Below are positions 454-43,400 of a stretch of DNA of 64,000 nucleotides, in pieces. The stretch lies in the NCBI GenBank assembly GCA_029948255.1, contig JALIZF010001611.1:186001-250000 (forward strand). The letters are read 5' to 3'. Position 1 is the first letter of the stretch. Each line of letters starts with the position of its first letter. The stretch is from Telmatactis stephensoni. Its lineage: Eukaryota > Cnidaria > Anthozoa > Actiniaria > Isophelliidae. The notes beneath the pieces are model-generated. The model had not been told where the DNA came from. It saw only the letters and a list, made by a program, of their open reading frames with translations, and ran no database searches. The position numbers and the translations under genes were made by a program.

Positions 454-3400
454 ATGGGAGCTTCAGGATCTAAAGAACCCAAAGCAAAATACTGTAATCA
501 TTCACCTTTGCCAGAGGATGCTGTGCCATATAGAGGCCCACAGTGCTTGTACTTATTATGTCACGTACAAGTAAAGATGTCATCTAATGGTATGTAGGAT
601 AGAAGTAATTTGCTTAAAGTTGAACTCTTGATCTAACTAGTGATCTAACTTCTTCCTTTCTCCCTCCCTTTCTTTTTTCAATTTAATTTTCCTTTCTCTC
701 TCTCTCTGTTTTTTTATTACTTAATCAAACAAGGATTAAATCAGATCAAATGTTAACTAGATTTAAACTATACCCCAAATGTTCTTCTTTCTAGTGACAT
801 TTGGATTCTCTGCTGGTCGTCCCATGGTCACAACTAACATTGACTCATATTATCCAATGCTAATGCAGTACTACCAACAAGGCTACTTGCTTCACACCTT
901 CTATAGAGTACCTTTTGTAGCACAAATGTCAGGTTTTGGGTCAGTTGTCATGCCTTATGAAGCTATTTTCTCCAAACCATCTGATGGGTAGGTGGTGACA
1001 CAGTTGAAAATCATTTCATGGCAACTCTTGATGGGGGTTCTAAGTTATGCATTGTTAGCTTAATATTTTGTATGCAACCCCTGTTGGGATCTAAGATCAA
1101 AATGTCAAATTGATTGGTGAATGTATCACAGAAATATGATGCCCAGTACCTTGCAATGTAATTGAAGGGATACCAATGAAAATGGCTCAAGATGTGACTT
1201 TTTGATGATTTTTCTTATTTTCTCAAATGGTTCAAAATAGTATTGACTTTTCTATGGTAAAATATCAACACTAGCACAACAAAAGTCACTTAGGCCATTT
1301 TCAGGGGTATCCCTTCAATTGATGAAGTTTGCTTCCCCAAACGCATCCTCCCAAAAAGTCACACCTTAAAAAAAGTCAGATCCAAACAATTTAAAACATG
1401 AAAAGCATTTTGCCTGATCCTCATCTCGGTGTATGAAATTCCTGTTAGTTTATATTCTTTTTATAATGTTGATTGATAGTTCCATGGCTGAAGGAGGAGT
1501 ACCATATGAATTGAGGATTGAAAAGTCTTTGATGCAGATACAGGCCATGTATACTGGGATAATAACGCCGGGTACAGTTGCACATACTGCTGATATCATA
1601 CAAAAGGTAATAGAGCAGATTTTGTTTTTAGTGTGAAATGGACTGCATTAATTGTGCCATGACTGTGTCAGTGCTCTGATGCCTATGTGATACTTTGTGG
1701 GCTTTTATTCAGGTCTTCCAGTTTTTCTCCCTCAGTGAAAAGGAACTAGTGAGATCAGAATTGTATGCATAGGATGTATGACCTCCTAGCTGAAAACGAT
1801 ATCTGATAGTATTACAATTCCTTTTGAAAATACTTTATTACCAGATAGCACAGTACTCAAGTCAGGGAGCCAGACTAGTTTGTATTGAGATGACTGGGTG
1901 TGTCTCATCTCAGGGATTCCAAAATGCTATGGCTGGCATGAGTGGAGGTAAGAATGAATGACTGATGCAACTTTGTACTAGTTAAAGTTTCACCAACCAC
2001 TTACTGACACCTTACCATCCACTTGCTGAAACCTTACCAACCACTTGCTGAAACCTTACCAACCACTTCCTGACACCTTACATTACCTCAAATCAATGAT
2101 ATTGGATATCTCTGCTTTTAAGATATACTTTAGATCACGAAAATTGCTGAAAATATCGAGTTTTGCCCGACGATCATTTTTGTAGCAATAAAAATTCGAA
2201 AGGCAGTTTTCCAAAATCATACAAACCATTCTTGTGTTTAGCGCTAGTTCCTCTAATTTTTGTCTTAGTTCCTTTAAAGCAAATCGGAACGCAAAAGGAA
2301 CGCAAAATTCGGCCCTATCATAGTGTGAAAGGGAACTCAAAAATCGGTTTATCGGAACAGATTTCGATATCTGTTCCCAACCGCTATTTGAATCGGACCC
2401 ATTTAAGTCAAAGGGAACAATTGTTCCCCTCTTTGGGCATTGGGAACACCAGGTTGTTCCGTTTTGTGGAGATCGGATTTCGCAGTTCCCTTTTCCAAAG
2501 ATTAGGAACGATGAATGTTCCGCTTTTCGAAATTGAGAACACAAGTTCCGTTTTACAAACATTAGGAACAACGAATTGTTCCCTTTTTTGGCATGGGGAA
2601 CGGTTGTACCCTTTTTCAAAAATTGGGAACGCGAGAATGTTCCGTTGTGTAACAGTTGAGACGCTAGTTCCCTTTTAAGACATTGGGAACTTCGAATCGG
2701 TCCGTTTTGGAGCATCAGGAACGATTATTCCTCTTTCAAACAGTAGAAAAAATTGTTCCGCTTTGGCTTATTGGGAACGTCGAAATGTTCCGTTTGAAGA
2801 CATAAAGGAATTGTCCCGCTTTTAAACAATGGGACCGTTTGTTCCGTTTGAATACAGAAGGGAATGCCGTATTGTTCCGTTTTTCAATAATGGGAACGTT
2901 TGTTCCATTTTCAATTTGCTAATGCCTTATCGTTCCGTTTTTTAAAAAAAGGAACGTTTGTTCCGTTTAAAGACATAAGGGAACACTGAACTGTTCCTGT
3001 TTTTAACAATGGGAACGTTTGTTCCGTTTGAAGGCATAAGGGAACGCCGTGTTGTTAGGTTTCTAATTCGGGAACGTTTCTTCCGTTTAAATAGATTCGA
3101 TGACGCCCTATTGTTCCGTTTTGGTATGCACTGGAATCTACTGTTCTCTTTTAAGCATTAAAAACGCTGTTCCGTTTTGGGACCGATTAGAAACGATTGG
3201 TCCGTTCCTGACAACGCGACCAATAATTGTTCCTTTTTTATCAATCGTTAAATCGTTATTTAACCTTGATTTAACTTTTCACGAAAGACATAAGTTCCTT
3301 ATCAATTGAATTCGAATGGGAGGTATTGTCTCTTAGGGTTGTTCCAGTCCAAACATGTCCAGGCACGCACAGGCATGTTCAGACTTATCCAGGCTTGTAT

Positions 3401-6400
3401 GGGCATGTACAGACATGTTCAGACATGTCCAGGCATACACGGGCATGTACAGACATGCTCAAACATGTCCAGGCACGTATGGGCATGTACAGGCATGTTC
3501 AGGCTTATCCAGGCTTGTATGGGCATGTCCAGGCATGTTCAGACATGTCCAGGCATATACGGGCATGTTCAGACATGTCCAGGCATGTACGGGCATGAAC
3601 GGGCATGTTCACACTTATCCAGCCTTGTATGGGCATGTTCAGACATGCACGGGCATGTTCAGGCATGTTTATCAGTTTACAAGTAATGGCGTGCCCTTGA
3701 CAATCAAATGAGAGTCCCCGAGGGTTGATCAAGTCCAAACATGTCCAGGCATGTATGGGCATGAACGGGGGCATGTTCAGGCATGTTTGAACATGCCCTT
3801 GGTTACTGATATCTTTGATTGGATGAGCCGAATTACCTATTCCCACGAGAATTGCCGATTGGATCCGTTATTGGTGTAACTCGATGACAGTGTGTGATAT
3901 TTCGTGTAACTGCACAGTCTGATATGAGTAAGCCAAGTGGTAAGACGTATATCGACTGGTCAAGGCAAGACGGTGCTTCACTCAAACCAAAACGATTACA
4001 CTTGGAAGAAAAGGAAAGTGATGGCTTATTTCACTGCCCAGTAGAAAAATGTACGCACGAAGAAGGCTTTTCCACTCAAAGGGGCTGCAGAAAGCACGTA
4101 AAAAATAAGCATGCCTGGTTTTATTTCTTCGACTCGGAGCCAAGCACAGGCAAGCGAGCTGAACCGACGCAACCTCGCCTCGAGAAGAAATACCAATGTT
4201 TGACCAAATCTGTGGCCTCATTTGATGTCCAGAGTACAATTGGAAAGCAATTTGAAAAATGGTTGACAGGGAGTGGTGGTGGATGCAAAAGTGAAAGACA
4301 AGCGCAACAGATCGTCAAGAGAAGTTTCAAGTATCTCAAATTTTGTTGTGAAGATGACGAGGATGAAAAATTGGACTGGGACTTAGTCGATTACAGTTTG
4401 AGTTCGCCAAATTTTCTCTTTAAGTTTGTGGATGCGATGCAGACTGACTGGGGACTGGGGCACTCTGGTCGCATTGCCTATTTGGACTCAATAAGTGACT
4501 TGATCGATTTTCGAAAAGTGATTGGTGTTGCTTCCGAAACCGTTCTGAGAAATCTTACGTCGTCGGAAGTTTATTTAAAGCGTGCTCGTAAAACCATCTC
4601 TCGCATGATGCGATTGCAGTGGACTAGCGATCTGGACATTGACACGTTAGAATCGAAGGGACATTGGGCGTCGCTGGACGAACTTTTGCACGTGGTGACG
4701 TACCACCTTCCGCGTTACGAGACAGTGTCCAAATTGTGCAAAGAGGACCCCAACAAGACGACCACTTCGGATTTGTCGTTTGCCACCAAGTTTGTGGCAG
4801 TGTATTTATTCATCAAGGTCAAAGGTTCGCGTCCAATGACCTACCAGTATCTCACCGTGGACATGGTCAAGGCAGCTCACGAGGGCGATGGGTTTATTGA
4901 CCAGAAGAAATTCAAGACGACGGCAAGATATGGATTCGACTCGTTTTATCTCCCACCAGCTGGTCTGCAAGTTTTGGATATCTACATCGAGCACGTTCGT
5001 CCCCTTTTGAAGCCCACCTGCGAGTACGTTCTAGTCACGCTCAAAGGACAACAGCACAATAGAATTGGCCAGCTCATGAGCAAGTTGGTCTTTGAAGCCA
5101 CAGGCAAATACATTCATCCCACGCGATATCGTCAAATCGTCGAGACGGCGAGTCATCAACAACTGACCAGTAGCGAACAAGAATCGATCTCCGAGGATCA
5201 AAAGCATAGTTCCGTCGTGGCGAAAGTGCATTACCAGAAACGACGATCGCGCGACGTGGCTGCTAAAGGACACGAGTGCTTAAAGAAATTGCAAGGTGAA
5301 CAAGGATGCCGATTGGACGAGGACGTGCGCTCGAGGCTTTCCGATAGCTCAAACGATTCACCCGAGAAAAAGACGACCAACCAGCTGATTCCGACCAATG
5401 CTGCCGGTGCTCAGTTGTGCAAAAAGAAAGCGTTATTGTTCACGCCAGAAGAAGACGAGTACTTGAGACATGGCATCCGACGACATGGCCATGGAAAGTG
5501 GGTTGCCATTTTAAGGGATCCAAGTTATAAGTTCAAAACTGGAAGAACACCCAACTCTTTATTATACAGAGCATCCAAAAAGGGATTTGCAAAGGTGAAT
5601 TGAATGCAAACCATGACTTATCGATTGACTTGACTTTATTCAACGAACTCATATTTTATATCGTCTGGTAACGACATCAGACAATATTCTAGTATGCATT
5701 GCATTTGTTCTTAATTATCCTCATCTTTTCTATGTATTTGTATCTATATTAGTCAATAACGCATAGTGTTATCTTGACAAAGTACATAGTTTTGCAGTCT
5801 GTATCTCATGAATTATTCATGAGGACCAGACAAGCCTCCACCATCAATTCTAATTAATACAATTACAATTGATAGAGCACAAACACTAAAAGTGTGCAAT
5901 ACTTTGTGTTATTTAACACTAAATAGCACTAATTAAACAATAGAAAACAAAAGAATTTGCATAATTTAGCACTATTTAATACTATTTATGTTGCACACTT
6001 TTAGTGTTTGTACTCCACAACCTTAATATCTTAAACCTATTTGCTCAATTAGAAATTAACATATTCAAAGAAGAGTTTTAATAATCAAAGTAACAATAAT
6101 AGGAAATTTTAACTGTAAGTCTTAACCTAAATTGGACAAGAACAATGCCAAATGCGAAAAAAAAAAATGATGATTGCAGGGGCGGAACTAGGAGTGGGAG
6201 GGGGAAACCAATTTCGAGCCAGGAGGGACGCCTCCTGGACACTCAAGGAACCACTGCTGGATCCGCCCCTGTTTCGATACAATTACAATCCTTCTTACCT
6301 TAAACTTATTTGATAAATTATAAATTGACGGTTATTTGAATTTGCTCATAAAATATCCATGAGCTTATTGAAGGCAAGCTTACAACGTAGTAACAATAGG

Positions 6401-9400
6401 GCATTTGCACGATGGCGTCAGTTATTTACAACTACCAGAATGCTTTACGATTTGTTCTTTCTTATTTAGATTTTTATTCCTTCTTGAAAATAGTCCAACA
6501 ATTAGTGGCAATAATCATTTAACAAAAGAAAGTGGGCAAAGCATTCTGGTGGTTGTGTATGAATCCATTGTGCATATGTCTTATAGTCTTCTTTTACATT
6601 TTTGATTAATTGCAAATTGAACGCAAACTAATGAGAATAGCTACTTAGTGGTCCTTAGAAAAATACGCATATATTTTAAGTCTTACTCTAAATTGTATAG
6701 ATATGGAAAAGGTGTAGTTACACAGGGATTTTTTGTTTTTTGCTTCATTTTCTTTTACATTTTTGATTAATTGCAAATTGAACGCAAAACTAATGAGAAT
6801 AGCTACTTAACGGTCCTTAGAAAAATACGCATTTATTTTCTTTTGACCTCTTGTTTCTTGAGAACCTTTCAAACTCTTTGATCTTTTCCTTTTTCTCTGG
6901 CTGCTTGAGAAACTGGTAGGTGTTTGTGGTACAATTCGGATCGGCCTGGGCGTTAAAAATATATCGTCGTCGTCTTTAGGGGTGGCGGACTCGGGCGTTA
7001 CAAACGTATCGTCACTGTCGTCACTGTCGGGAAATCGCTGTACTTGTCTTCCTTTGTCTGGCCTTGGGGACCAAGAGGGTGTTTTGGGGGGATCCCACGA
7101 TAATGGGCTCGCTTGGCCACTTTCGTCTTGCTGCAACGCAGGACTTGGGGACTTGCAATCAGGTCTTGGGGACCAAGAGGGCGTTTTTGGTGGCGTCCAC
7201 GTTACCTCGTGTCCTCTATCCGACATTGGCGGCGTCATGGTTTCTGGAAAACAGCAAAGTGTGGGTAGGCGGTGATACACATTTCGTACTTCTGGAAGCA
7301 TCTCTTCTCTTATTAGACCTGAGGCAAGGCAGTATTTCCTTCTTTCCTCAAGAGCGATAGCATGGTTGGTGTCATTCTTGTCGTGAAAGAGTCTGATCTT
7401 GTTCTCGGTTATTCTTATGAGGCTTTCTAGAGTTGCCTTCATCTCTAGTTCTTTGGTTTGGTCAGCTTTTCTCACCAAATCACACATTTCTCTTTCTTTT
7501 TGTTGCAACCATGGTTGTTGGTAGATTTCTTGAGCCTGTTGGACTTGTACCTTGCGTTTTTCTCTTTTTTCCTTCTCGTTTTCACGTGCAATCATGTCCA
7601 TTCGTCGTTGCTGGACGTGCTGTGGAAGCTGGTGGTACGGATCTGTGATGTGCTCCATGGCTTCCTCTTCATTTACGATTCCAAGCTGTATCAACCTTGA
7701 GCGTCGAGACTCCAGTCTTTTCAACTCCTCCCCTCTTTGCCTCTGTACTTGTGCATTGCAGCGGTCCGTTAACTTTTCCAACAATTGCCCGCGGAAACTT
7801 TTTGGATCGCACTTTCTTTTCTCCACAGATAGCTCTTGTTGTCTTATTTCTGGGGTAGATAACTGGCTCAGGGAAACTGGGGTGGACATCGATGCGTCTT
7901 CTGCCGATGGAGCATTGCTGTGGCCACATTCTTCAAGATCCCAGTGCTGATCCAGGTTGAACATACACAATTCGGCTTGTTCATCCAAAGACAGTGCATC
8001 ACCTACTTCTAGACCTTTAAAGATAAAGTCAATGATATCAGTGATTGACTCGCCAAGTATATTCAATGACCTCTAATGCAAACTAATAGTTATATTAATT
8101 ATTTTGACGATGATATTCTTACTTGTTGAGACAACGTCTGCTGGCTCATTCGGTGTAGTATGATCAATTGCCCAAACAATGCACTCAACAGGATGACTTT
8201 TTAACCATTCAAAGGCCTTTGGGTCTTTTGTGGGAAGGCTCTTGAAGTTATAAACATTCAAGCGGGCGTCCATGGCGGGCTGATCTTCTTTAGGAAACTT
8301 CAACTCTTGCTGGCATGTAATGAGCATCGGGCATTTGTTCATAAACCCTCTGGCCGTCGAGAACTTCCTGTCGTGGGCTGTCCAACCTCCCTGTGTAAGC
8401 AGTTTCCAATCGTCCACGTCCATGATACCAACCGTCGCTTCGTCTATGAAGATAATTTCTGTTTGATCGTCAATCATAGCCTTGTTGAAAGATTTTTGTT
8501 TCGTCACTCGTGCTATGCGAGATATAGGGATCACACCAAACACTGGAGCGAATAGGCTAGTTTTCCCGCTATTTGCCTCACCAACAAGGCAAGGTACCTG
8601 TTGAACAAAAGAAACTGTTCTTCAGATAATCAAATCTTACTGGTTGAGATAAAGAATTGCTTAACTAACCCTTTGCTTGTGACTTTTCTTTTGGTGCTTA
8701 AATAAATCAAGAAAGTCGTTGCAGAATTGTGCTATTTGGTCAGGAGTCAAACTGTTGTCTAGTATCTCTGCAAAATATTTGGCATTGTTCGGCGTGTCCT
8801 TATCATAACTGAAGTAAGCCCGAGGACTCCTTTTACCAACCTCCATCTGTACCTAAGCAATAATGATAATATAAATTATATTAGATGCACAAACGTGTTA
8901 AAAAGCTGCTCTTTGTTTAACTAATGAAAGCAAATAAATTACCTTCACAAACTTTCTTTCAGACAAGCTCAAACACCATCCGTTGCTTATTTCAATCAAG
9001 TCGTACGCCACCTCTAGCTGTCTAATTAACTGGCTCTTCGGGTTCTTCAGCTTTTCCCTTATTTTATCTCCGTATTTTACCAAGCTTGAACGGAACGAGT
9101 CATTCCCTTCAAGGGCACCAATGAAAGAGTTGATATCGCATCTGTACGTATACGTGTACAATGATTCTGGATTTTTCTTGTAAATCAGTCCCTGGTGGAC
9201 AGCATAACCAAGTTGTTGCATAAGTATTTCGATGTTATTGATAACTTGCGTGCACTTGTCTGTTGTGAGCGATTTTGTTAGACGAGGGCAAAGATCGTCG
9301 CCACTTGCCAAACCCCTTACATCCAATTTCAATCCTGCGTTAACAAGTGCTTCAATTATTCGCCTCATCCGTTGGGTATTCTGACCGTTGACCAAGACAA

Positions 9401-12400
9401 ATCTCACCGCATGCTCTCTAAACTCTTCCCTGGCAATTTCCAAATCATCATCTCTATCTAGGCGACTTGTTGCTTCGTCGAAACACTTTTCAAATGAATC
9501 GTTAACAATGTCCCCAATATAGCTGGAATTGTGATCTTTTAGAACTGTGCAAAGACGTTTTGTCAAGTCGTACGAAGCCGACGTCCCAGGCCGCGCGGAC
9601 AGCAGTTTTGTATCGATTTCCACATCGCAACTTAAGAGACTTCTTTGAAGACGAACAAGAGACACTGGAGCTCCGTTTGGGGATTCAAATGCAATCCAGT
9701 AAGCTATTGCTGGCAAACGACCCTTTTCAACTGCTGTGTTTATAGCACTGGATGTTGACACCTCGCTGGTCACAGTTCTTTGGCTTGACTCAATCAAATC
9801 ATCTTCACCATCGTCGCCATCAGTCACAGCGTTCTTTCCTTTCTTTTTGGATCGATTTTCGCTAGACGATATAGCGGAAAAATAGAATGCCACACCTGGA
9901 AGATTTTCTAAGGCATTGTCACATTCCGATCGCTTGTCACACACGAGTTCCCAGGCTCTTCCCGAGCTGTTTCCATCTCCTTCTACTCTCCATACACAGT
10001 TTGCAGCAACAAGACAAAATTTTCCCTGCACCTCTGGAATCAAGTAACTGATAATGGCATCTCTGATAGATTTGCTATTGAGCTGGCGCGCTGGGTGTTG
10101 TGCTGCCGACATCTTCCTTTAGAAAGCAAAAATATCTATTAGTCGAGTGACAAAAATGCACATATAGGCACACTCTATCGATCTAAAGGCCGCAAGGATC
10201 AACAATGATATACTTACGTTTTTTCTTAGATAAAAACTCTTGTTCTCGAGACTTGTTACTCGCAGCAAATCCGAACAGCTCTGAGCAACTCTGAAGATTT
10301 GTTCCTTTTTATACTCTCCTTGTACAACTAGCAGTGACGTAGCACTGGATTCCAATGCTTAATGAGAATCTATAGTTTTTTTGTTTAATGTATGGTGTTC
10401 AAGAAAACGAGTTTTAACAACGCCTTAGGGAAAAGAAAGTTGACATTCAAACAATCCGATTATATAGCACAAAGAGTGCAAATGCGACGAAAGAATTACA
10501 TCACTATGAATGTGCAATCTAGATTTAGACTAAGGACTATGTCGGTTTATTTGTAACATTATTGATATCAGTTAAGTAGTATATATTTTAAATATAAAAC
10601 AGACCTAGTGCGAAAACGAACCGCAAGTAGTAAATCCGTACATCCATCTGTCCGTTGTATAATCAGAGCAGCTTCTAGATCATCTTCTGGATTCATCATG
10701 AATATTGATAAAGCACTCATTACTTCATGTGTGAGATACAGAGTTGAACATCAAAATCCGTGCATCCGTAGATCCGTGTTGTTTTCAGACCGACTTACAG
10801 AGCACAACAGTTGAGAATTACTATTCATGACGGGACTCAGCAAGTTCTGAAACTAGTCAGAAATTACAACGGATCGACGGATGGACGGAAAAAACACTTG
10901 CAGTTCTACTTTAAAACTCAGGAATATTTAATATACTCATGCACTAATATTCATAGAGTTGAAGATCAAAATCCGTACATCCGTAGATCCGTGTTGTTTT
11001 CAGACCGACTTACAGAGCACAACAGTTGAGAATTAATATTCATGACGGGACTCAGCAAGTTCTGAAACCGATCAGAAATTACAACGGATCGACGGATGGA
11101 CGGAAAAAACACTTGCAGTTCTACTTTAAGACTCAGGAATATTTAATATGATAATGCATTTATATTCATGACGGGACTCATCAAGTTCTGAAACTGGTCA
11201 GAAATATCAACGGATCGACGGATCGACGGAAAAAACACTTGCAGTTTATAATATATTTAATTATTCTGGAATGTTTAATAGAATAATGTATTACTATCAA
11301 TAATATATTAAATGATATATTATTAATATTTGTTGTATAATGTATTAATATTAATAATATATCATTTAATATATTATTACTATTAATACATTGTTATATA
11401 TTAAATATTCCAGAATATATTAATATATTATATAATAAATAATATAATATTAATATTAATACATTAGTATATTAAATATTCCTGAGTTTTAAAGTAGAAC
11501 TGCAAGTGTTTTTTCCGTCCATCCGTCGATCCGTTGTTATTTCTGACCAGTTTCAGAACTTGACGAGTCCCGTCATGAATATAGATGCATCATCATATTA
11601 AATATTCCTGAGTTTTAAAGTAGAACTGCAAGTGTTTTTTCCGTCCATCCGTCGATCCGTTGTAATTTCTGATCGGTTTCAGAACTTGCTGAGTCCCGTC
11701 ATGAATATTAATTGTCTATACTTGCTCTTTAAGTCGGTTTAAAAACAACACGGATCTACGGATGCACGGATTTTGATCTTCAACTCTATGAATATTAGTG
11801 CATGAGTATATCAAATATTCCAGTCTTAAAGTAGAACTGCAAGTGATTTTTCCGTCCATCCGTCGATCCGTTGTAATTTCTGACCAGTTTCAGAACTTGT
11901 TGAGTCCCGTCATGAATATTTTTTGTCTATACTTGCTCTTTAAGTCGGTTTAAAAACAACACGGATCTACGGATGCACGGATTTGTCTTCTTTCTCCTGC
12001 AAATATCGTAGTTGATATCATGACCCGCAGTCTAGTCTGCAAGTATCGTAGTTGATATCATGACCCGCAGTCTAGTCTGCAAGTATCGTAGTTGATATCA
12101 TGACCCGCAGTCTAGTCTGCAAGTATCGTAGTTGATATCATGACTTGTATTCGATTCTGCAAGTATCGTAGTTGATATCATGACCCGCAGTCTAGTCTGC
12201 AAGTATCGTAGTTGATATCATGACCCGCAGTCTAGTCTGCAAGTATCGTAGTTGATATCATGACCCGCAGTCTAGTCTGCAAGTATCGTAGTTGATATCA
12301 TGACCCGCAGTCTAGTCTGCAAGTATCGTAGTTGATATCATGACCCGCAGTCTAGTCTGCAAGTATCGTAGTTGATATCATGACCCGCAGTCTAGTCTGC

Positions 12401-15302
12401 AAGTATCGTAGTTGATATCATGGCCTGCAGTCTACTCTGCAAGTATCGTAGTTGATATCATGACCCGCAGTCTAGTCTGCAAGTATCGTAGTTGATATCA
12501 TGACTTGTATTCGATTCTGCAAGTATCGTAGTTGATATCATGACTTGCATTCGATTCTGCAAGTATCGTATACTTTACCTATATTCTCTGTAAAGCAGAG
12601 CCCAGTTGTGTTCCGATTAATATCAGGTCCGATTTCTAGTTGTTCCTCGCAAAGGGAACAACATCCCGCAAATAAGATGCCCTAAGCAAATGCTTTAAAC
12701 TTGAAAATCGTTTTTTTGACAAAGTCTTGTTATTCAAGTTATTGCTTCGTCAAAGTGACCATACACGATGAAAAATCTTGAATAATTCCACCGAAAATCG
12801 CGATTGAAAAAGAGGAACAGTGACGGCAGTACAATGGCACCTTACCAACCACTTACTGACACCTTACCAACCACTTCCTGACACCTTACCAACCACTTCC
12901 TGACACCTTACCAGCCACTTCCTGATACCTTATCAACCACTTCCTGATAACTTACCAACTACTTACTGATACCTTATCAACCACTTACTGACACCTCACC
13001 AACCACTTCCTGATACCTTACCAACCACTTCCTGACACCTCACCAACCACTTACTGACACCTTACCAACCACTTACTGACACCTTACCAACCACTTACTG
13101 ACACCTTACTAACCACTTAATGACACCTTACCAACCACTTACTGATACCTTACCAACCACTTACTGACACCTTACCAACCACTTATTGATACCTTACCAA
13201 CCACTTACTGACACCTTACCAACCACTTACTGACACCTTACCAACCACTTATTGATACCTTACCAACCACTTCCTGATACCTTATCAGCCACTTCCTGAC
13301 ACCTTACTACTAACTTTAATACTGATATCTTACCAACCACTTCCTGATACCGTACCATCCTCTTCCAGACACCTTACCAGCCACTTAAACATATACCAAA
13401 TCTAAATTATCTTAAGCATTATTTTTCCCTTCTATTTTCTTGAAGATATGGGTGTGGACCTGTTCTTTAATATTCCACGCATACCCAATCCCCCATTGTA
13501 CAGCTACAATTGTGTCAATGTTCCAATTGGATTCAGAGTTCAACCAGGCTTTTCCAATACAGTTGAACTTGATTGTGATTTCATGGGGAATTTTGCTGCA
13601 TACTTAAATCAAGGGTGGAAATTAGTAGAAATCTTTCTAGATCAAGGAATGCAGAGGCATGGAGGTAAGTAGTTTACAATTTACACAAAAGCTAAAAGCA
13701 CATTTGGTGTTCATTGCAGGTATGCTTGGAGTGAATCATGTGTCCCTCTGTCAATGAAATTTGGGGACATTTGGTTATAAATATGGGACATTTTTCAATT
13801 ACGTTTTATGTCATTTGCTTCAATCGTCTCTCTCTTTCATTTCAAAAGTCTCAAATTGAGTAGATTTCATATGACTAACTGTGAAAACGGCACCGCACGG
13901 TCACAGCACGATTACCGCACAGTTACCGCAGGAATATTGAATCTTTTTATAGAAAACATGGTACTGACACAGCACGGCAGTCGGCGCGGTCCGTTTCATA
14001 CCCACTGCTCTATTACAAATGCATCAGGTCATTTGAAAGTCAGGGACACTAACCAACTAAGCCACACAAGCTCCTTGGCCTAGTTGGGAAACACATGGTT
14101 GGCTGAGTGGTGAGAGCACAGTCCTTTCACCACTGTGGTCTGGGTTCAAGCCCCAGCTCAGGAATCAGATCATATGTGAACTGAGTTTGTTTGAGGATTT
14201 TTTCTCCAGGTTATATTACTTATATATTTCAGGACATTTCATAGGGGCTTACATGAAATACTAACCGTTAATTTTTATTGAGATAAAATGGAAGCAAGCA
14301 ATTTTTATCGTTGTGCTTGCACTTATGCTTGTGTTGTAGTAAAAACCAGACTATGCCAATATGAATAACAAGACTGTGTATGCACATGCAGAAATAGGTT
14401 ATGTGAGTTTTAATCTAGTCTCCCTCGCAGCCGTGTTTAGCCTCGTCACGCAACGATCCCTCGGAAGCGTTGCGTGACGAGGCTAAACACGGCTGCGAGG
14501 GAGACTAGTTTTAATCCAAAGTATTTGACTATTTCAGCCTTTTCAATGTCAGCACAATTGAATTCTGTCTGGTTCTTTGAGAAAGAGACTTCAAAAGTCA
14601 ACGATCCCACTCCCCTTTATGAAGGAACCATAATATACTATCAACATATTATCAAGGTGAGTATATAACACACGCCTTCATATTCTACATAAATAATGAA
14701 TTCTACATAAATAATAAAAGTGGTAATACATACAAGTATCAAGAAGTATGATATTCATTTTTATATGATAATTGGTGTATTACGCGAACTCTGATTGGTC
14801 GAGAACCGTGTGTTATTACAGTACACACATATATGACGTCATTGAATCTTACGCGCGCCTGATTGTCTGAAATGTACGAGCGTGCAATGTTTAAAATGTT
14901 GCAATGAAAAGTTCAAAATTTGAACTTTCTGCAACAATGTTTTTGCCGCCTATGTTGCCAGACATGATACACTCGGCAATTTCGCTCTGGCAACAAAATC
15001 CCTAAAATTGCATTGCAAGCGCGAGAAAAAATTGCGGTTATTTCTACAATTTAATTAGGATTAACTGATGGATTGTAGAAGTGCATGATGTAATTATTAT
15101 TTATGATCTACAATCTTGTTTTTAGAGTGGATTTGGTGGTGTAAAAGTTAAGAGTGACTGGTCACCTATTATGCAGCAAATGGGCGAGAAAGGATGGGAG
15201 TTGGCCTGCTTGCTAGAAACTCCGCAACAGCAACGAACTGGCTTAACTACGGCTAGTGTCACCATTTTGCTTTTCTTCCAACGAAAGATTATTAGGGGCT
15301 GA
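454..15302 (+). CDS. Raftlin-like lipid-raft protein, 7 exons
   Basis: Raftlins are acylated raft-associated proteins implicated in receptor signalling and endocytosis. Exons: 454-589, 795-987, 1480-1606, 1845-1947, 13446-13664, 14538-14656, 15126-15302. Every junction has GT..AG ends and matching phase, giving 357 aa. The N-terminus MGASGSK fits an N-myristoylation signal and a Cys follows at residue 14. Residues about 46-110 hold the YQQGY segment of the family. The last exon (residues 300-357) ends in the hallmark block GWELACLLETP followed by a hydrophobic strand. The protein is shorter than vertebrate raftlins (over 500 aa), as if it lacked the central linker. Intron 4 is 11.5 kb because it contains the recombinase/helicase element. 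The start is the first ATG giving the myristoylation motif. Family assignment is by remembered sequence pattern; exon calls are seen directly. Confidence 0.82.
1160..1320. mobile_element. Short MITE with inverted termini
   Basis: It begins AATTGAAGGGATACC and ends GGTATCCCTTCAATT, with a further matching inner block around ATGGC/GCCAT. The length is 161 bp, it is non-coding, and it lies in intron 2 of the raftlin-like gene. Confidence 0.75.
1990..2081. repeat. Left part of a split 22-bp minisatellite
   Basis: About four copies of a 22-bp unit (consensus CTTACCAACCACTTMCTGACAC) end abruptly at CACCTTAC (2074-2081). The same unit resumes at 12838 on the far side of the large insertion. The array belongs to raftlin intron 4. 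Confidence 0.85.
2230..3240. repeat. Array of GGAAC/GTTCC palindromic motifs
   Basis: Roughly two dozen degenerate copies of paired motifs, typically GGGAACGTTTGTTCCGTTT, recur every 30-60 bp through a thousand bases at the left end of the element. The inverted pairing GGAAC-N4-GTTCC suggests binding sites for a dimeric protein. Open frames across it are repeat artefacts. Its link to element-encoded proteins is inferred from position only. Confidence 0.7.
3351..3670. promoter_or_regulatory. Array of 32 decamers matching the p53-family half-site
   Basis: Thirty-two 10-bp units are packed with no spacing, consensus RGRCATGTYC. By direct inspection 16 match the p53-family half-site RRRCWWGYYY perfectly and most others differ at one or two positions. 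Several adjacent pairs make perfect full sites without spacer, for example 3411-3430, 3451-3470, 3521-3550 and 3561-3580. A shorter related array follows at 3737-3797. It ends about 125 bp before the recombinase ATG, so it lies in the expected promoter region. It may also be just a satellite whose unit happens to match; binding is not shown. Confidence 0.55.
3737..3797. repeat. Second short decamer array
   Basis: Six related decamers, starting AAACATGTCC and ending GAACATGCCC, follow an AGTCC lead-in like that of the main array at 3345. It is probably a partial duplication of that array. The register is disturbed once by two extra Gs. Confidence 0.6.
3924..5603 (+). CDS. Tyrosine recombinase with C2H2 finger and Myb/SANT domain
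   Basis: Predicted integrase of the surrounding element, 559 aa in one exon. A C2H2 finger lies near residues 37-62 (CPVEKC ... HVKNKH). The catalytic domain occupies about 260-445. The apparent tyrosine-recombinase residues are R303 (KGSRPMTY), H398 and R401 (HPTR), H428 (KHSSV) and nucleophile Y437 (KVHYQK), in the canonical order and spacing. The C-terminal 50 residues (FTPEEDEYLRHG ... HGKWVAIL) form a Myb/SANT domain of the telomere-repeat-binding type. The ATG at 3924 was chosen; the frame stays open for ten codons upstream but without ATG. There is no frameshift and no intron. The decamer array lies just upstream, and the helicase gene converges from the opposite strand. Crypton is the nearest known class; two DNA-binding modules in one recombinase are unusual. 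Confidence 0.8.
   Translation: MSKPSGKTYIDWSRQDGASLKPKRLHLEEKESDGLFHCPVEKCTHEEGFSTQRGCRKHVKNKHAWFYFFDSEPSTGKRAEPTQPRLEKKYQCLTKSVASFDVQSTIGKQFEKWLTGSGGGCKSERQAQQIVKRSFKYLKFCCEDDEDEKLDWDLVDYSLSSPNFLFKFVDAMQTDWGLGHSGRIAYLDSISDLIDFRKVIGVASETVLRNLTSSEVYLKRARKTISRMMRLQWTSDLDIDTLESKGHWASLDELLHVVTYHLPRYETVSKLCKEDPNKTTTSDLSFATKFVAVYLFIKVKGSRPMTYQYLTVDMVKAAHEGDGFIDQKKFKTTARYGFDSFYLPPAGLQVLDIYIEHVRPLLKPTCEYVLVTLKGQQHNRIGQLMSKLVFEATGKYIHPTRYRQIVETASHQQLTSSEQESISEDQKHSSVVAKVHYQKRRSRDVAAKGHECLKKLQGEQGCRLDEDVRSRLSDSSNDSPEKKTTNQLIPTNAAGAQLCKKKALLFTPEEDEYLRHGIRRHGHGKWVAILRDPSYKFKTGRTPNSLLYRASKKGFAKVN
5875..6015. mobile_element. MITE nested in the element
   Basis: The termini GAGCACAAACACTAAAAGTG and CACTTTTAGTGTTTGTACTC are near-perfect inverted repeats around an AT-rich core of about 90 bp. 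It lies in the convergent spacer between the recombinase and helicase genes. Confidence 0.75.
6177..6271. mobile_element. hAT-type MITE remnant
   Basis: It starts CAGGGGCGGA and ends GGATCCGCCCCTG. CAGGGGCG-type ends are typical of hAT elements. The body is only 95 bp and no clear 8-bp target duplication is visible, so it may be truncated. A longer relative lies at 18485-18685. Confidence 0.6.
6594..6670. repeat. Direct duplication of the helicase gene 3' end
   Basis: This stretch repeats 6757-6836 almost exactly, with shared blocks TTTTTGATTAATTGCAAATT and CCTTAGAAAAATACGCAT. The second copy includes the last codons and stop of the helicase gene. The duplication lies downstream of the stop codon on the minus strand, so it falls in the 3' UTR or spacer. 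Confidence 0.75.
6807..10355 (-). CDS. SF3 helicase of the mobile element, 5 exons, C-terminal PIP box
   Basis: Predicted replicative helicase, 1055 aa. Exons (minus strand): 10355-10218, 10112-8943, 8846-8670, 8597-8123, 8014-6807; introns of 72-108 nt have GT..AG ends and consistent phases. SF3 signatures: Walker A GEANSGKT (K507), Walker B EIIFIDEAT (D547, E548), motif C PMLITCQQ (585-592) and a probable arginine finger at R607 (ARLNVYNF). This set is known from papillomavirus E1 and parvovirus NS1. Residues 1-440 match nothing I recognise. The C-terminal 400 residues are charged, with two copies of a motif ending YHQLP/YHRLP and two of PPKTPSWSPRPD, offering SP/TP phosphorylation sites. 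The end has a basic patch KRKRSK and QKKINAYF (1044-1051), a perfect PIP box, implying contact with host PCNA. The exon 5 acceptor is the least certain. Tail-to-tail with the recombinase. Confidence 0.78.
10600..11990. repeat. 1.4-kb palindrome with inverted iterons around an AT-rich core; candidate origin
   Basis: The left half carries GGATCGACGGATGGACGGA with CACTTGCAGTTCTACTTT at about 10872, 11090 and 11212. The right half carries the complements at about 11490, 11615 and 11830. A second motif, CCGTAGATCCGTGTTGTTTT, is at about 10764 and 10980, and its complement at about 11740 and 11950. The centre (11270-11460) is almost pure A/T with TAATATATT runs. Inverted initiator sites around an AT-rich segment are the layout of origins used by SF3 helicases. 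Origin function is inferred from this layout and the neighbouring helicase gene. Confidence 0.6.
11995..12575. repeat. 40-bp tandem array, about 15 copies
   Basis: The unit runs from TCTGCAAGTATCGTAGTTGA to the end ATCATGACCCGCAGTCTAG, with TTGATATCA at its centre. Copies are nearly identical; three carry a variant ending TTGTATTCGAT or TTGCATTCGAT. Homogeneity suggests recent expansion. There are no spacers, so it is not a CRISPR array. Confidence 0.92.
12838..13390. repeat. Right part of the split 22-bp minisatellite
   Basis: About 25 copies of the CTTACCAACCACTTMCTGACAC unit run until just before exon 5 of the raftlin-like gene. They are the same family as 1990-2081, and together the two parts mark the insertion site of the large element. 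Confidence 0.9.
13856..14013. mobile_element. Copy 1 of a TAGAG-ended MITE family
   Basis: It shares the body GTGAAAACGGCACCGCACGG and the GCGCGGTCCGTTTC end block with copies at 32849, 50993, 52862 and 57772. Its inverted termini (GAGTAGATTTC.. ..CTGCTC) are the most decayed of the five. It lies in raftlin intron 5. Confidence 0.7.
14095..14220 (+). mobile_element. tRNA-derived SINE fragment
   Basis: Pol III-like A box (TGGCTGAGTGGTGAGAGC) and B box (GGGTTCAAGCC) are followed by a tail related to the copy at 26395-26640. There is no intact cloverleaf, so it is not called a tRNA gene. Confidence 0.7.
14415..14510. repeat. Near-perfect 39-bp-arm hairpin
   Basis: AGTCTCCCTCGCAGCCGTGT begins the left arm and its exact complement ends the right arm. 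Only about 12 bp separate the arms. It is a short fold-back element in raftlin intron 5, immediately before the exon 6 acceptor region. Confidence 0.85.
14768..14880. repeat. Dispersed repeat with TGACGTCA and GCGCG motifs
   Basis: The segment from AATTGGTGTATTACGCG through TGATTGGTCGAGAACCG and ATGACGTCATTGAATCTTAC resembles 50446-50660 and the complement of 57360-57490. It is probably part of an old dispersed element in raftlin intron 6. Confidence 0.5.
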
Positions 15303-17666: not shown

Positions 17667-20600
17667 TTACATGGCAGTCTCAAATACGTCTGATTTATCT
17701 TCCTCTAACTCTATATTACTCTGTTTTTCATTTCCCATTTTTCCATTTTCCTTTGTTTCGTTTTCTGTTATTTCATTTTGCCCTCCGATGACATTTTCCT
17801 CTTCTTCCTTGTTAATATTTATGATTTCATTTCCGATTATGTCACTGTTCGTTGCTTCGTTTTCTGTATCACTTTCCTCTTCAATGGCATTGAAGAAAGA
17901 ACCTGCATTTGCGCCCGCGTCTTCTTCAATTACGTCCAGAATACTGGCAGTCGATACAAACGAAGTCTCGTCTGTTTGGGTTTCAGCATCTTCCGTTTCA
18001 ACTGTTTGTGAGAAAAAAGGATTGCTTAAGTTAGCAAAATTAGAAGCTCTTGAAACCCTGCATTTGCGATACCGTGGCAAAACGACTGCGCATGTGCGAG
18101 TTTTCGCGCGTTTTGTGCGCGTCCGCGTCTTGACGACAGGAATCCCAAGGAATATTATTAGTATAGAATTTTATCAAAGATTTTTTTATCAAAGATGTTT
18201 TTCCAGATTCCATATCTTTGCGCTCAATTTTGAGCATTGGAACAAACAGGAAAGTACTTGGTGCAAAAGACAGGTGACAATATACTATAATGTCCTCAAA
18301 CTGATTTTTTTGGGGACTAACTTTGGCTGCTGTGGCTTATATTTCACCGCCAAAGTGCCTAATGTTTTCATCGGGATCGCTTCATAAGTTGCGCATGCGT
18401 GATACATTTTGGCGCGGTGTCTGCATTTGCACTGAAGGCACATTCTCGTATTCGTTTTTCACCATAGCTGATAAACAGGCAGATCAGGGGCGAATCCAGG
18501 GGGGTGTCCATAGGTGCACCGGACACCCCCATAGCGCCGTGCTGACGTATCTTTTATAGGCTTCTTGCGAGATGACGTCATCAGTTAGGAGGCCGCCATC
18601 TTGGATGTGACGTCATCTCTCAAGAGGCCTATTTTGGACACCCCTCCCCCCCCCCCCCCTTTGTAAAATCCTGGATCCGCCCCAGCAGATAGACTCTAAA
18701 TTGCTTGATTAGTGCCGTTCTAGCCATCATGCACTCATGTAACATCCATCCATAACATAGTATGAAAAGGACATGAAATGTAAGGTGTTTATGTTAATTT
18801 TAGTATTAGAGTGCTTCCAATATATCCGTGAAAAAGTTAGCGAACTAAATTGTACTAAATAGCGGGAAATCCTTTGTTTTCTATTGTTTGATTAGTGCAA
18901 ATCAGTGCAATTCCTTACAAAGTTTTTCACGGATATATTGTAAGCACTCTAAAGGCACGATGAGAAATCCATTAAGTACTTACTTATTGGCTTGCACTGG
19001 ATTGTTGCTGGGATAAAAATGATGAAAGCCAGAAGACCAAGGAACGCGCTGACACCAGGGGTCAGTGCAAACACATAATGAGTATAACGAACATAATGAG
19101 GGCTGAAAAAGAAGAACAGGATAAGTTAGGACTGAAAAAACAACGACATATAACTAGTATGAAATGCGTGGTAATTTTGTATTCATAAGGGGTTCATAAT
19201 CACGTAACCAAAACAACTAAAGCGTCTTGAGCATACGATATGTAATGAAACGTTTCTCGCAACGTTTTGGTCAATATGGCATATATACTATATTAGCGGC
19301 GGATCTAGACCTTTTAAAAGGGGTCCACCATTCAACAAAACACGTTGACGGGGGCCGGCGTAACTTCCTCAAAACCCCCTTCTAAAGTAACTACGCAGGG
19401 CTTAAGCAAGCCATAAAATTTCGAGCGGCTAAAACAACGACCATGATTATCCTTTTGCGAGCGCGAAATTTGAGCTAAGGCGCGTCATCAATTCGATTAG
19501 CAAAACTAACAGCAAACATTTAGAAAGTAAAGCTTTGGAAAAGTACATTGTCCAACACCTTTAGACAGAAGAGACATGAAGAGAGAGAGGGAGAGAGAGA
19601 GAGAGAGAATAAAAAGTAAGTAGGGCCCAACTGAAAGGGAGGAAGAGGCCCGGAGGAAAGTAGTTTCTTTATGCTGCACATGAAAGTGCCCACTGGAACA
19701 ATTATTTAAAGTCAAGGCCTTTTACAGTTTGATAGAAAAGACTGTTTCTTACTCGGTTGGTTTTGGAGAAAACTCTTGTAAGAGACAGAAGAGGACACCA
19801 GTAGCGATCTTAGCAAAGAAACCCATGGACGACATCAAAAATGCTCCAGAAGCCTGTAACAATAAAAAAGAATGATTAGAAATATACGGCGAGAATATCA
19901 AGTGGGAGAACTAAAACTGACAGAGCGTTTTCCTCTCGTTACTAGAACCAGGGACATGCAATTTTAAAAGCAACACGTCTGAGACTGAGGAATGGGGTAA
20001 ACAATAGGATGCGACGTCCTATATTATATACTGTAAAAAGGCCATTGATCATCTTTTGATTGAAAAGGTTAAGATAAGACACTAATATTTAGCGTCGGTA
20101 GTTCCTTCAGTTAGAAGTTGATCTCCTGGGAAGCCGACGCTGTGCTCTTTATTACCCCCTCTCTTCATCAGTGCTCCGTTTTAAGAGTATTCAAAGCTAA
20201 TTAAAGCTACACAGAATGGAAAGAAGTGGTCTTACACCGTCGTCATACAATGAGATAGATCGTACCCTGTCAGCATCGACAAATTCAGCAGCTAAAGCAA
20301 GCGTAGTTACAAACATAATGGACGTTCCACATCCTGACAAGAAGGCGGGGACATAGGTGACATTACGATTCTCCTCCGTCAGCAAGTAAAACCATCCTGA
20401 TGCTCCCATTACCAATACTGTACCAAGACAAAATGTCCACTGAAAACATTAAAACGTGAGTTATACAAAAAATATCTATTTTCTTTCCTTCCTCTCTTCC
20501 ATATTTCATCCCTTCCTTTACTCCTTCCTTCGCTCCCTCCCCGCTCAGTCGGTCAGTCGGTCAGTCGGTCAGTCGGTCAGTCGGTCAGTCGGTCAGTCGG

Positions 20601-20865
20601 TCAGTCGGTCAGTCGGTCAGTCGGTCAGTCGGTCAGTCGGTCAGTCGGTCAGTCGGTCAGTCGGTCAGTCGGTCAGTCGGTCAGTCGGTCAGTCGGTCAG
20701 TCGGTCAGTCGGTCAGTCGGTCAGTCGGTCAGTCGGTCAGTCGGTCAGTCGGTCAGTCGGTCAGTTGGTCGGTCGGTCGGTCGGTCGGTCGGTCAGTCAG
20801 TCAGTTAGTCACGCAGTCAGTCAGTCAGTCAGTCAGTCAGTCAGTCAGTCAGTCAGTCAGTCATT

Positions 20866-20897
<32 letters not shown>

Positions 20898-20951
20898 CAG
20901 TCAGTCAGTCAGTCAGTCAGTCAGTCAGTCAGTCAGTCAGTCAGTCAGTCA

Positions 20952-20991
<40 letters not shown>

Positions 20992-21585
20992 TTCGGTCAG
21001 TCGACAGTCATTCGGTCAGTCAGTCAGTCAGTCAGTCAGTCAGTCAGTCAGTCAGTCAGTCAGTCAGTCAGTCAGTCAGTCAGTCAGTCAGTCAGTCAGT
21101 CAGTCAGTCAGTCAGTCGGCCTCACCTTATTTCCAAGAATTGTATTTAACTTTTTGCCACCAAAACTAGCAATAACTCCACTTACTAGGATAACTAAAGG
21201 AAAGTAAGCGATGGCAATCTGAAAACAGATTTTAGAGCGTTAATTTTGGAAACTTCTGAAAGAGTAATATTTACAACTTCATAATTACAACACCTATCGT
21301 GTATTCAGTATGTTACTTGGGGTCTTATTGTGTAAAAATCGGGAAAAGAGAATGTGTCGGTAATTTCTTAGTCCTTACCATTCCATATTTGAGATGATCT
21401 GTCAAAAAGAGAGGCAAATAGGCAGTTGTAATGCTCTGAGCCACTCTTGTAAACATGTAGGCAAACCCAAGCTGAAAAGCAAGACGAAAGGTCAATTTTT
21501 GTATTATCATTGTAAATCAAAGAAAACAAACAAACATACAAAGAAACAACAAGCAAACTAATATTTATGAAAGCAAGCAAGCAAG

Positions 21586-40400: not shown

Positions 40401-43400
40401 TTTGGGACGGAAAAGACAAAGTCGACGAAGGCATATCTTTCGGGTGTGCTCCCATTTATTGTCATGATGTACAAGACAAAGCAGATTGGTTGGAGGAGTG
40501 TCCTCAGAACCCACAATGTATAGATCGTAGTGTAGGTGATTACTGTTCGTATGGATACTACAACTGCGACTGGTGTGGATGGCACAACAGTCAAATATGT
40601 CTGAAATGTTTTGATCGACTGGTCAACAACCACCCACCCCCACCAGAGTCTCTACAAGACGAAGTCCGTCGGATTCATGAACTAATAGAACAGGGAGAAA
40701 TAAATATGACTCTGTACCTACCCGAACTAGCTAAAAGGGCTGCACTTGGACACCAAAAAAGTTGTGAGCAAGGCGATCGACTTTTTATTATGAAATATGG
40801 GCATCATCCAGAATTACCAGCTTGGGAATCCTTTGATGTAAAAATATTAAAATTTCCTGAAAAATATACATGTCGACCTTTTTGTTGTCCTTCGAACTAG
40901 TATGAATTTGTACATTGATATGTTGTAATATAATAAAAACGTTTTAAAGAAAAACGTGTGTTCTCCTTTTTATTTTTTATTTTTGTCTTCATCCTAGCAA
41001 CAAGTTACTTACCAAAGCTATCGACTATCTTAAAACAAAACAAAAACAAAAACAAAAACAAAAAAACAAGACACCAGTAAATGTTTGAATATGATTTTAT
41101 TTTCTTTCTTTTTTTAGTTACAATTAATACAAGAGTTAAATACTACTTAATATTTTTCCCAACCGGGTATGGACTGAATCATGGCTCTTATTCGTTGTGA
41201 GCGTCTTGGAGGTTGGAACACCTGTCCTCTATACTTATGTTCATCTTGATAACGTATCCACCTGGGATCAGCTTGGGGTTTTTCTTTAGTGGATGGAGGC
41301 GTGAGAGGAAACTCTACACTCGATAGAGTGATGGGAGTGGAAGTAGAGGGTTGGTCTACTTTTAATGGAGTCGACGGTATCTCCTCTGTACCCTGTGGAC
41401 CACTAGATTTAAAAGGTGTTCTGACTTTGGATGTCAGACGTTCTAGGAATGAGGGTGTTTTAGGTGTTGCCATGCCAACACCACTGTCACTGGTCACACT
41501 TGTAGAAGAGACGTTTTTCGGAGTCGTCACGTTAGCCGGAGGCTGACTCTGGTCGACCAATGTTGATACGGTTGAAATGGGTTCCTGTCTCGGTATCGTT
41601 GGACCGGTATTGGAGAGTTGTTGTTGTAGAGCAAGGTAATGATTAAACAGTGGACCATATTCTTTGATTTTCACCTCTGGAGGTAGGGTGGGGTCTTTCA
41701 AAATGGCGTCCATCTGTTCTTCTAGTTCCTGCATGGCTTTCAGTTGGGGTGACTGTAAGTACCCTTGACGCTCAAAAAAGTTAGCGATGGTCTTTACGGC
41801 ATCTGTTTGACCTCCAGTCTGCGATGGGTGAGCATCATTTGGAAGAACGTTGGTACGCAGTCGACACCCCTCTGGGGTGTTGGGTTTGAGATCGACGAAC
41901 AGGTAGCCGTAAGGCCGCTGAACTGCATCTTCATACTTTGACAGAAGAACTTCTCTGTCTTTCCAGGGTACATCTGTTTTCCCAAGTCATCATTTGTAGC
42001 TTTGTCTCTTGGATTTTTGAATAAGATAAGGTATGCAGCGTTCAGACTCAGAGTGCGCATGATTTTTCCTTGAAAATATAGATTCTGCGTAAGAAAAATC
42101 ACACTGAGGTTTCGATGATGAGATCCTTTGGTAAATAAGTTCATAATTCTCTTGTCGTTGGACGTCTCTGTCATTTGATCATCAATCACCATACAGTTGT
42201 TGATCTTAGGGTCAAAGTACGCAGTCCTTCATCTAGGTCTAGTGGGATACCTTTAACAAACTCGATCCCAGGGACCGTTTTGAGCATCCGGTCGTAGGCC
42301 GGTTGCCATTGAGAGTAACTCCATACAATACGTTGAGGTGGAGGTTGGATGACTTGGTTGGCATGTTCCAGTAGGTTTTGAACCCAGACCGTTTTCCCAG
42401 AGCCGGTCATTCCAGCCACTAAGGCTGTGAATGGGTGGAGTAATTGAAACCGGTCACATTTGGTTTCCACTTGAGGTTTTGTCTGAGGGTAGGGAGTAAA
42501 CCGCTGACCAACTTTTGTGCATTTTTCTTGACCTAGCCAATACTGTCGCTGTGAATTGTCCAGCTTATGAGTTCGACTCAAATGAGTGTGTAAATTTTGT
42601 TGCGGCTTGCCGCATATAGGACACATCCGCACCATTCCGCGTCTTGTACTGAATGAAACCAATTTTAGAAATATGTGTTATTTATGGTCTATATGGATTG
42701 TTATTTTCTACATTAGATAAGATCTATTAGATTCTACATTAGATTAGATTAGATTAGATTCTACATTAGATTAGATTAGATTAGATTAGATCTATACTAG
42801 TTTAGATTCTACATTAGATTAGATTAGATTCTACATTAGATTAGATTAGATTAGATTAGATCTATACTAGTTTAGATTCTACATTAGATTAGATTAGATT
42901 AGATTAGATCTATACTAGTTTAGATTCTACATTACATTAGATTAGATTAGATCTATTAGATTCTAATTAGATTAGATTCTACATTAGATTAGATTAGATT
43001 AGATTAGATTCTAATTAGATTAGATTCTACATTAGATTAGATTAGATTAGATTAGATCTATACTAGATTAGATTCTACATTACATTAGATTAGATTAGAT
43101 CTATACTAGTTTAGATTCTACATTAGATTAGATTAGATTAGATCTATTAGATTCTAATTAGATTAGATTCTACATTACATTAGATTAGATTAGATTAGAT
43201 CTATTAGATTCTAATTAGTTTAGATTCTACATTACATTAGATTAGATTAGATTAGATCTATTAGATTCTAATTAGATTAGATTCTACATTAGATTAGATT
43301 AGATTAGATTAGATCTATACTAGTTTAGATTCTACATTAGATTAGATTAGATTAGATTAGATCTATACTAGTTTAGATTCTACATTAGATTAGATTAGAT

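Follow-up and report, generated by a model that had tools for sequence, protein, structure and literature searches.

A probable hexacoral-wide transposon family with linked tyrosine recombinase and SF3 helicase genes that behaves like an integrative plasmid

In the sea anemone Telmatactis stephensoni, a stretch of 64,000 nucleotides (contig JALIZF010001611.1, positions 186,001 to 250,000; the whole stretch is called the window here) carries a tyrosine recombinase (YR) gene and an SF3 helicase gene between two halves of a split minisatellite, and the question is whether both genes belong to one mobile element, and of what kind. The reading considered likely was that of a hexacoral-wide transposon family behaving like an integrative plasmid, with linked genes, a circular stage, replication, reintegration and control by a p53-family protein. 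Two convergent genes were found between conserved ends, with insertion into tandem repeats, lox/FRT-like head-to-tail joints and recent multiplication. The anatomy of the attachment sites and an origin-like region suggested that the element would excise as a circle, replicate and reintegrate. The use of the minisatellite as host target, the microsatellite targets, the p53-like array and the origin-like region go beyond what a first-pass annotation of this DNA had described.

Comparison of six copies placed the mobile element at 2082-12837 (the left edge may lie one base further, at a shared C). The block that the first-pass annotation had seen between the minisatellite halves was real, with splits at 2081/2082 and 12837/12838. 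The transposon was about ten kb in size and had sea-anemone and coral relatives. Near-identical copies were present at six loci (n = 6), with outer flanks unlike from locus to locus by eye, and the start and stop bases were identical in all six (flanks of all five other copies compared). The window-type copies differed by 1-6 substitutions per ~4 kb around the YR gene (15 pairwise comparisons), which fits the earlier suggestion that the element may be recently active. A genome search with a YR-gene segment returned six copies that were about 100% identical, with many more near 80%, and a search with the helicase core recovered the same six loci plus further linked loci. All six window-type copies lay inside one dispersed 22-bp minisatellite, in identical phase.

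Two repeat arrays occupied the outer parts of the element. A GTTCC/GGAAC array (2222..3330, + strand) lay between the left end and the p53-family half-sites described below, the motifs reaching 35 per kb in 2082-3330 against a background of 1.2 per kb; the enrichment was found in 7/7 subfamily representatives (19-39 per kb). Near the right end was a 40-bp tandem array of 14 copies (11997..12570, + strand), to which an array of subfamily C86 was ~74% similar. Outside the element, further long tandem arrays were observed in the window at 20545-21119 and 42707-43556 (TCAGTCGG x72 and ATTAG-type). The element and its minisatellite apparently lay within an intron of a host gene (window 13406-15300, perhaps 440-1960), and 15135-15300 resembled Raftlin (E 5.9e-6, 25.7 bits, below the cut-off of 29.4).

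The SF3 helicase gene lay on the - strand, with its ATG at 10112 and its stop at 6807. It had been described as a complete gene of five exons; four coding blocks were found (10112-8943, 8852-8670, 8597-~8123 and 8072-6807), with Walker A and the core in 8597-8123. Between the core and the C-terminal ORF, that is, between the last two blocks, an in-frame TAG (within 8073-8123) was present in all six near-identical copies, for which an intron, truncation and recoding are candidates. Walker A residues G393/K394/T395 were kept in 29 of 30 aligned relatives (one gap) and the arginine finger R494 in 30/30, and Walker B residues I431, F432 and E435 were invariant. The named relatives among the matches listed came from the hexacorals Acropora, Oculina, Montipora, Desmophyllum, Porites, Nematostella and Actinostola. 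Six relatives were scanned against Pfam: P0146 exceeded the cut-offs for PF00519 (Papillomavirus helicase) and PF19263, P0135 matched PF00519 below the cut-off, and two matched Parvo_NS1 below the cut-off. The sole Pfam match of the window helicase piece alone was MMR_HSR1, and the helicase profile had no match among PDB sequences at E ≤ 0.1.

SF3 helicases are a typical feature of small DNA viruses, and phage P4 is a satellite that borrows the capsid of a helper. It was asked whether the element could descend from a Polinton-like or other DNA virus and have lost its capsid, or be a satellite dependent on a helper's capsid as P4 is, which was judged unlikely. The SF3 helicase, the matches of its relatives to PF00519 and Parvo_NS1, and the head-to-tail arrays, which fit a replicating circle, speak for such an origin, as do the gene maps of Polinton-like viruses and virophages, which include an S3H helicase and a YR and for which a circular donor has been proposed (available text of PMC4642659). 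These viruses have, however, capsid and packaging ATPase genes (available text of PMC4642659), whereas no major capsid protein, packaging ATPase or other capsid or packaging match was found among the 24 block ORFs of at least 80 aa. Pfam was run on all 24 of these ORFs, and the ORFs of other copies were covered in part. Reverse transcriptase and polymerase matches were likewise absent from the 24 ORFs, in agreement with the earlier statement that the block has no reverse transcriptase, capsid or polymerase gene, and besides the Myb match of the YR and the P-loop match of the helicase core nothing in them exceeded a curated Pfam cut-off. Searches of IMG/VR contigs, made with two short peptide patterns for each of YR and helicase, confirmed no relative of either, and three proteins compared with PHROGs gave no match below E 0.1.

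The YR gene (3924, first ATG, to the stop at 5603, + strand) encoded a C2H2-like N-terminal part, recognised by eye, and an R-K-H-R-H-Y set. The catalytic residues R304, K329/K332, H399, R402, H429 and Y438 (P0001 numbering) were kept in 41/41 sequences (the alignment took in the window protein together with 40 of 904 homologues), which bears out the complete recombinase with an R-H-R-H-Y set that had been annotated. That both genes are open, as also claimed, held for the YR frame in five of the six near-identical copies but not in C124, which had a single TGA, nor for the helicase, with its TAG in all six. The C terminus of the YR carried a Myb/SANT domain (5439..5567, + strand; PF00249 above cut-off), and all 19 matches of the YR profile to PDB sequences fell in this region, TRF1/TRF2 foremost (E 5.6e-5). 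TTAGGG occurred within the attachment arms of several shallow subfamilies and was absent from the arms of the window; binding of TTAGGG-bearing arms by the TRF1/TRF2-like Myb is only a suggestion. A structure model of the YR was of low confidence (mean pLDDT 65.4, pTM 0.36). Named relatives among the best 120 of the 904 matches were from the hexacorals Porites, Oculina and Actinostola.

DUF3504 is the Crypton domain, and neither it nor another integrase Pfam family matched the YR at E ≤ 1. This argues against a Crypton as published with a helicase acquired in addition, a reading that was regarded as quite improbable. The element is, like the Cryptons, a YR-bearing DNA element without reverse transcriptase, and CryptonA is known from Nematostella (Kojima and Jurka 2011, available text of PMC3212892). 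The available text of that paper mentions no helicase, whereas here a second conserved gene, the SF3 helicase, was linked at 42 of 47 helicase loci; it describes animal Cryptons as having neither a C-terminal domain nor terminal repeats, in contrast to the inverted attachment arms found here (PMC3212892). Judged by description and Pfam, the element fails to qualify as a Crypton on DUF3504, on the second gene and on the inverted arms.

The form of the attachment site was read where copies stood head to tail, namely at C182 (four copies at a spacing of 9.22 kb), C117 and C1367, with one junction read per array. The junction at C182 and C1367 was TTAGGGAAATGG-TCATCA-CCATTTCCCTAA, made of 12-bp inverted arms and a 6-bp spacer, and at C117 the same arms enclosed an expanded (TCA)n; the arms were therefore present in 3/3 junctions and the single 6-bp spacer in 2/3. 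Sites of YRs consist of 11-13-bp inverted arms and a 6-8-bp spacer (available text of PMC3212892), and because the 12-6-12 arrangement fits this description, the attachment site has the form of a YR site. In the window, the left arm (2081..2103, + strand) was CATTACCTCAAATCAATGATA.., with AAATCAATGATA conserved across shallow subfamilies, and the right arm (12814..12837, + strand) was GGAACAGTGA....GTACAATGG, whose GAACAG was shared by the deep families read. The two arms of the window subfamily had diverged and matched each other poorly.

Tandem repeats adjoined the arms in every subfamily read. Of the host 22-bp minisatellite, taken as the target, the left part (1992..2081, + strand) ended in CACCTTAC, and the right part (12838..13387, + strand) began with it, so that this 8-mer was shared by 2074..2081 and 12838-12845 (+ strand). 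It stood on both sides in 5/6 copies, the right side of C489 being CACCTTAT; a spacer or crossover segment and a target duplication are candidates for it. Single copies with C182-type arms lay in TCA repeats at C1, C118, C4, C542 and C160 (left flanks only), as did relatives with TTAGGGTAATGG arms at C204 and C44 (both sides) and at C184 and C329 (left only). The deep relatives had different arms (CATAGTCCAAAA / TTTTGGAATATG at C223) and were flanked on both sides by CT-rich repeats, the targets being (CTCTC)n at C14 and C240, (CTCCTT)n at C901, (CTT)n at C223 and, at C201, an imperfect CTTCC-type repeat to the left and (TTCC)n to the right. Some of the microsatellites beside elements were long and near-perfect (132 copies of CTCTC at C240, 164 of TTCC at C201). 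Periodicity was in the top 5% of background in 33 of the 37 flanks scored, and the remaining four (C184, C7, C118 and C542, left) still ended in short TCA runs.

The window subfamily had CACCTT at the place of the spacer, and its host minisatellite contains CACCTT; this spacer and those of the deep family were read from the flanks, so that their match to the target exists by construction, and the spacer was known independently of the flanks for the C182/C1367 type only. From these sites, identity between spacer sequence and target repeat would be the rule of target choice.

The 22-bp minisatellite itself was abundant. A dimer with up to 3 mismatches had 9,971 genome matches (5,214 + 4,757) against 0 for the reversed control, and the 100 places among the matches listed formed 20 clusters, of which a single one adjoined an element. 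Because the other 19 listed clusters lay away from any element found, the minisatellite is taken as a pre-existing host repeat that was used as target. Its abundance elsewhere also ruled out the minisatellite as a part of the element. Manufacture of the tandem repeats by the element after insertion was held to be very improbable: arrays did flank copies of every subfamily read, and some were very long, such as the 132 pentamer copies at C240, but to the position of the 19 clusters is added that the minisatellite units were on average ~2-9% off their consensus, against ≤0.15% for the inserted elements.

Linkage of the two genes was examined by whole-genome protein searches, which gave lower bounds of at least 96 YR matches (78 of 132 candidates scored; 66 loci after clustering) and at least 96 helicase matches (48 of 269 candidates scored; 47 loci). 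A YR lay within 10 kb of 42/47 helicase loci, the genes being convergent in 42/42, whereas chance would give ~0.1 (66 YR loci, +/-10 kb, 483.5 Mb); the refuting case named by the first-pass annotation, homologues that never co-occur elsewhere, was thereby contradicted. Five helicase loci had no YR within 10 kb (C458, C60, C819, C979 and C276, the YR of C276 being 16 kb away), and decayed copies or a separate use are candidate explanations. No helicase match was found within 10 kb of 23/66 YR loci, some of which were fragments or near contig ends; C14, counted among these 23, had a helicase on closer look. Separate ends for each gene, also raised by that annotation, were tested for, and the two genes were found to share a single pair of ends: the six window-type copies and C204, C44, C14, C223 and C201 were read at both ends, with both genes inside.

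Both genes had the same layout in 7/7 diverged loci and in 3/3 deep-family loci, the latter with 50-52% identity in the YR and with a helicase core 32-38% identical to that of the shallow family. Over all 36 pairs, YR and helicase identities were correlated (r +0.81). Within the shallow family (C117, C182, C86, C204, C316 and the window; 15 pairs) r was -0.42, and because the identities do not correlate there, YR and helicase modules may be exchanged. In other hexacorals, YR and helicase matches fell on contigs of equal size (81048, 2264954 and 717496 bases; compared by eye among the best 120), which suggests linkage there too, distance left out. Two unrelated elements nested by chance in a minisatellite, which the convergent rather than operon-like arrangement and the 5/47 helicase loci without a YR within 10 kb might favour, are ruled out for practical purposes by the 42 linked and uniformly convergent loci, by the two ends shared by every copy in which ends and interior were read, and by a deep family that keeps the layout.

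Just upstream of the YR gene lay an array of p53-family half-sites RRRCWWGYYY, mostly in 10-bp phase (3351..3798, + strand). It contained 20 matches, compared with a mean of 0.12-0.14 and a maximum of 2 in 500 shuffles, and 8 zero-spacer pairs, compared with 0 elsewhere in the window. The 13 shallow copies tested had 12-20 matches each against shuffle maxima of 1-3, and phased arrays were present in 3/3 deep loci (no shuffle comparison), making 16/16 copies tested overall; the array was also present in 7 further shallow copies. Copies within one subfamily are not independent in this respect, and tandem arrays keep their likeness by descent. Zero-spacer pairs numbered 9 in C204, C184 and C329, 0 in C316, and 1 in each of eight other shallow copies, which were mostly 20-bp spaced.

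A p53-family response element consists of paired RRRCWWGYYY half-sites spaced by 0-13 bp, in which the C at position 4 and the G at position 7 matter most to p53-family proteins (available text of PMC2807882), and the array has such paired half-sites. Position 4 of the decamer was C in 32/32 cases in the window, 22/22 in C204, 31/33 in C86 and 22/22 in C316, and position 7 was G in 27/32, 21/22, 31/33 and 22/22, respectively. About every second decamer departed from RRR in arrays of the C86/C182 type. The motif was kept across the deep split while the surrounding bases changed, which argues that the array is functional. The nvp63 protein of Nematostella binds the canonical site and was a stronger transactivator in transfected cells after UV (available text of PMC1964547). 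On the strength of the motif, the putative half-site array probably lets a host p53/p63-family protein switch on the YR gene, and another palindrome-binding protein may instead recognise the half-sites.

Upstream of the helicase start, an origin-like region (10740..11984) had ATCCGT/ACGGAT iterons of 8-bp period within long inverted repeats (arms of 219 nt, 97%). The 200 central bases (11274..11473) formed an A+T-rich core of 91.5%, compared with a background median of 0.61 and maximum of 0.825. The window had 27 ATCCG or CGGAT motifs in 2.7 kb vs 0.9 per kb, in both orientations on both sides of the core and without left/right strand bias. C204 had a core of 99.5% A+T, a 9-bp iteron period and inverted arms of 863 nt (91%), with 27 CGGAT and 0 ATCCG on the left of the core and 37 ATCCG and 6 CGGAT on the right, and the region of C44 resembled it. 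Iterons and an A+T-rich core thus occurred together in the window, C204 and C44 (A+T 0.915-0.995); C316 had a core of 0.925 with few CGGAT motifs, in C86, C7 and C117 the A+T content nowhere peaked above the background maximum, and the region of C182 was covered in part. Long TAACCCAC-type repeats were observed on both sides of the helicase in deep loci C223 and C201 (L051 3929-4665 and 8725-9901; L052 3748-5058 and 8490-9506). By its composition, the iteron and A+T region would be a replication origin, clear in some subfamilies only.

Put together as a cycle of the integrative-plasmid kind, the YR would cut the element out as a circle, the two ends of which meet in an arm-spacer-arm site, the helicase would open the iteron-flanked A+T-rich origin, and host polymerases would copy the circle. 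The YR would then recombine circles into a host tandem repeat matching the spacer, giving dispersed single copies, and integration of a circle where a copy already sits would give head-to-tail arrays. A host p53/p63-family protein would induce the YR through the half-sites, as DNA damage does a prophage.

Integrative plasmids, prokaryotic phage satellites and the yeast 2-micron plasmid combine a site-specific recombinase with replication or maintenance proteins of their own and a circular state. They are not animal elements, and the likeness drawn here is one of gene content; by this analogy, the element would function in the manner of an integrative plasmid or of a temperate element that lacks a capsid. 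Integrases of endogenous nimaviruses likewise are YRs with a C2H2 domain that insert into tandem repeats, and are the nearest precedent for repeat targeting, likened here by description (available text of PMC10871703). Their target is, however, the (TAACC/GGTTA)n telomere repeat and nimaviruses are large crustacean DNA virus genomes (available text of PMC10871703), whereas varied micro- and minisatellites, two genes and no virion gene were found here. Cress-like sea-anemone contigs bearing RepE1, compared by description only, have a Papillomavirus E1-like replicase and some are linked to cnidarian DNA, but they are described as virus-derived and with a capsid-like gene, and no YR is mentioned in the available text (PMC11071296).

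No named family of animal elements with a YR and an SF3 helicase was found among the best-ranked papers of the literature searched, which lay outside subscription papers and Repbase; a Repbase name for the YR may already exist. A bolder proposal, put forward tentatively and given somewhat less than an even chance, is a new superfamily of animal mobile elements, made up of prophage-like integrative replicons that bring along a recombinase, a replicative helicase and an origin, go into spacer-matched repeats, are induced by the host's p53/p63 DNA-damage pathway through some ten to twenty-five half-sites and are possibly packaged by a helper.

We know of no other animal transposon in which a site-specific recombinase is accompanied by a replication initiator and an origin-like region; the element would amount to an integrative plasmid of animals. 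Its attachment sites are simple enough for assays in cells, and the rule that spacer equals target repeat would be a mechanism, open to direct test, by which targets are chosen and genes spared. With the half-site array one could ask whether transposons make use of p53-family signalling in animals whose germ line has an active p63-like protein. Elements that dwell in repeats would also be a source of structural change in the genomes of corals and anemones.
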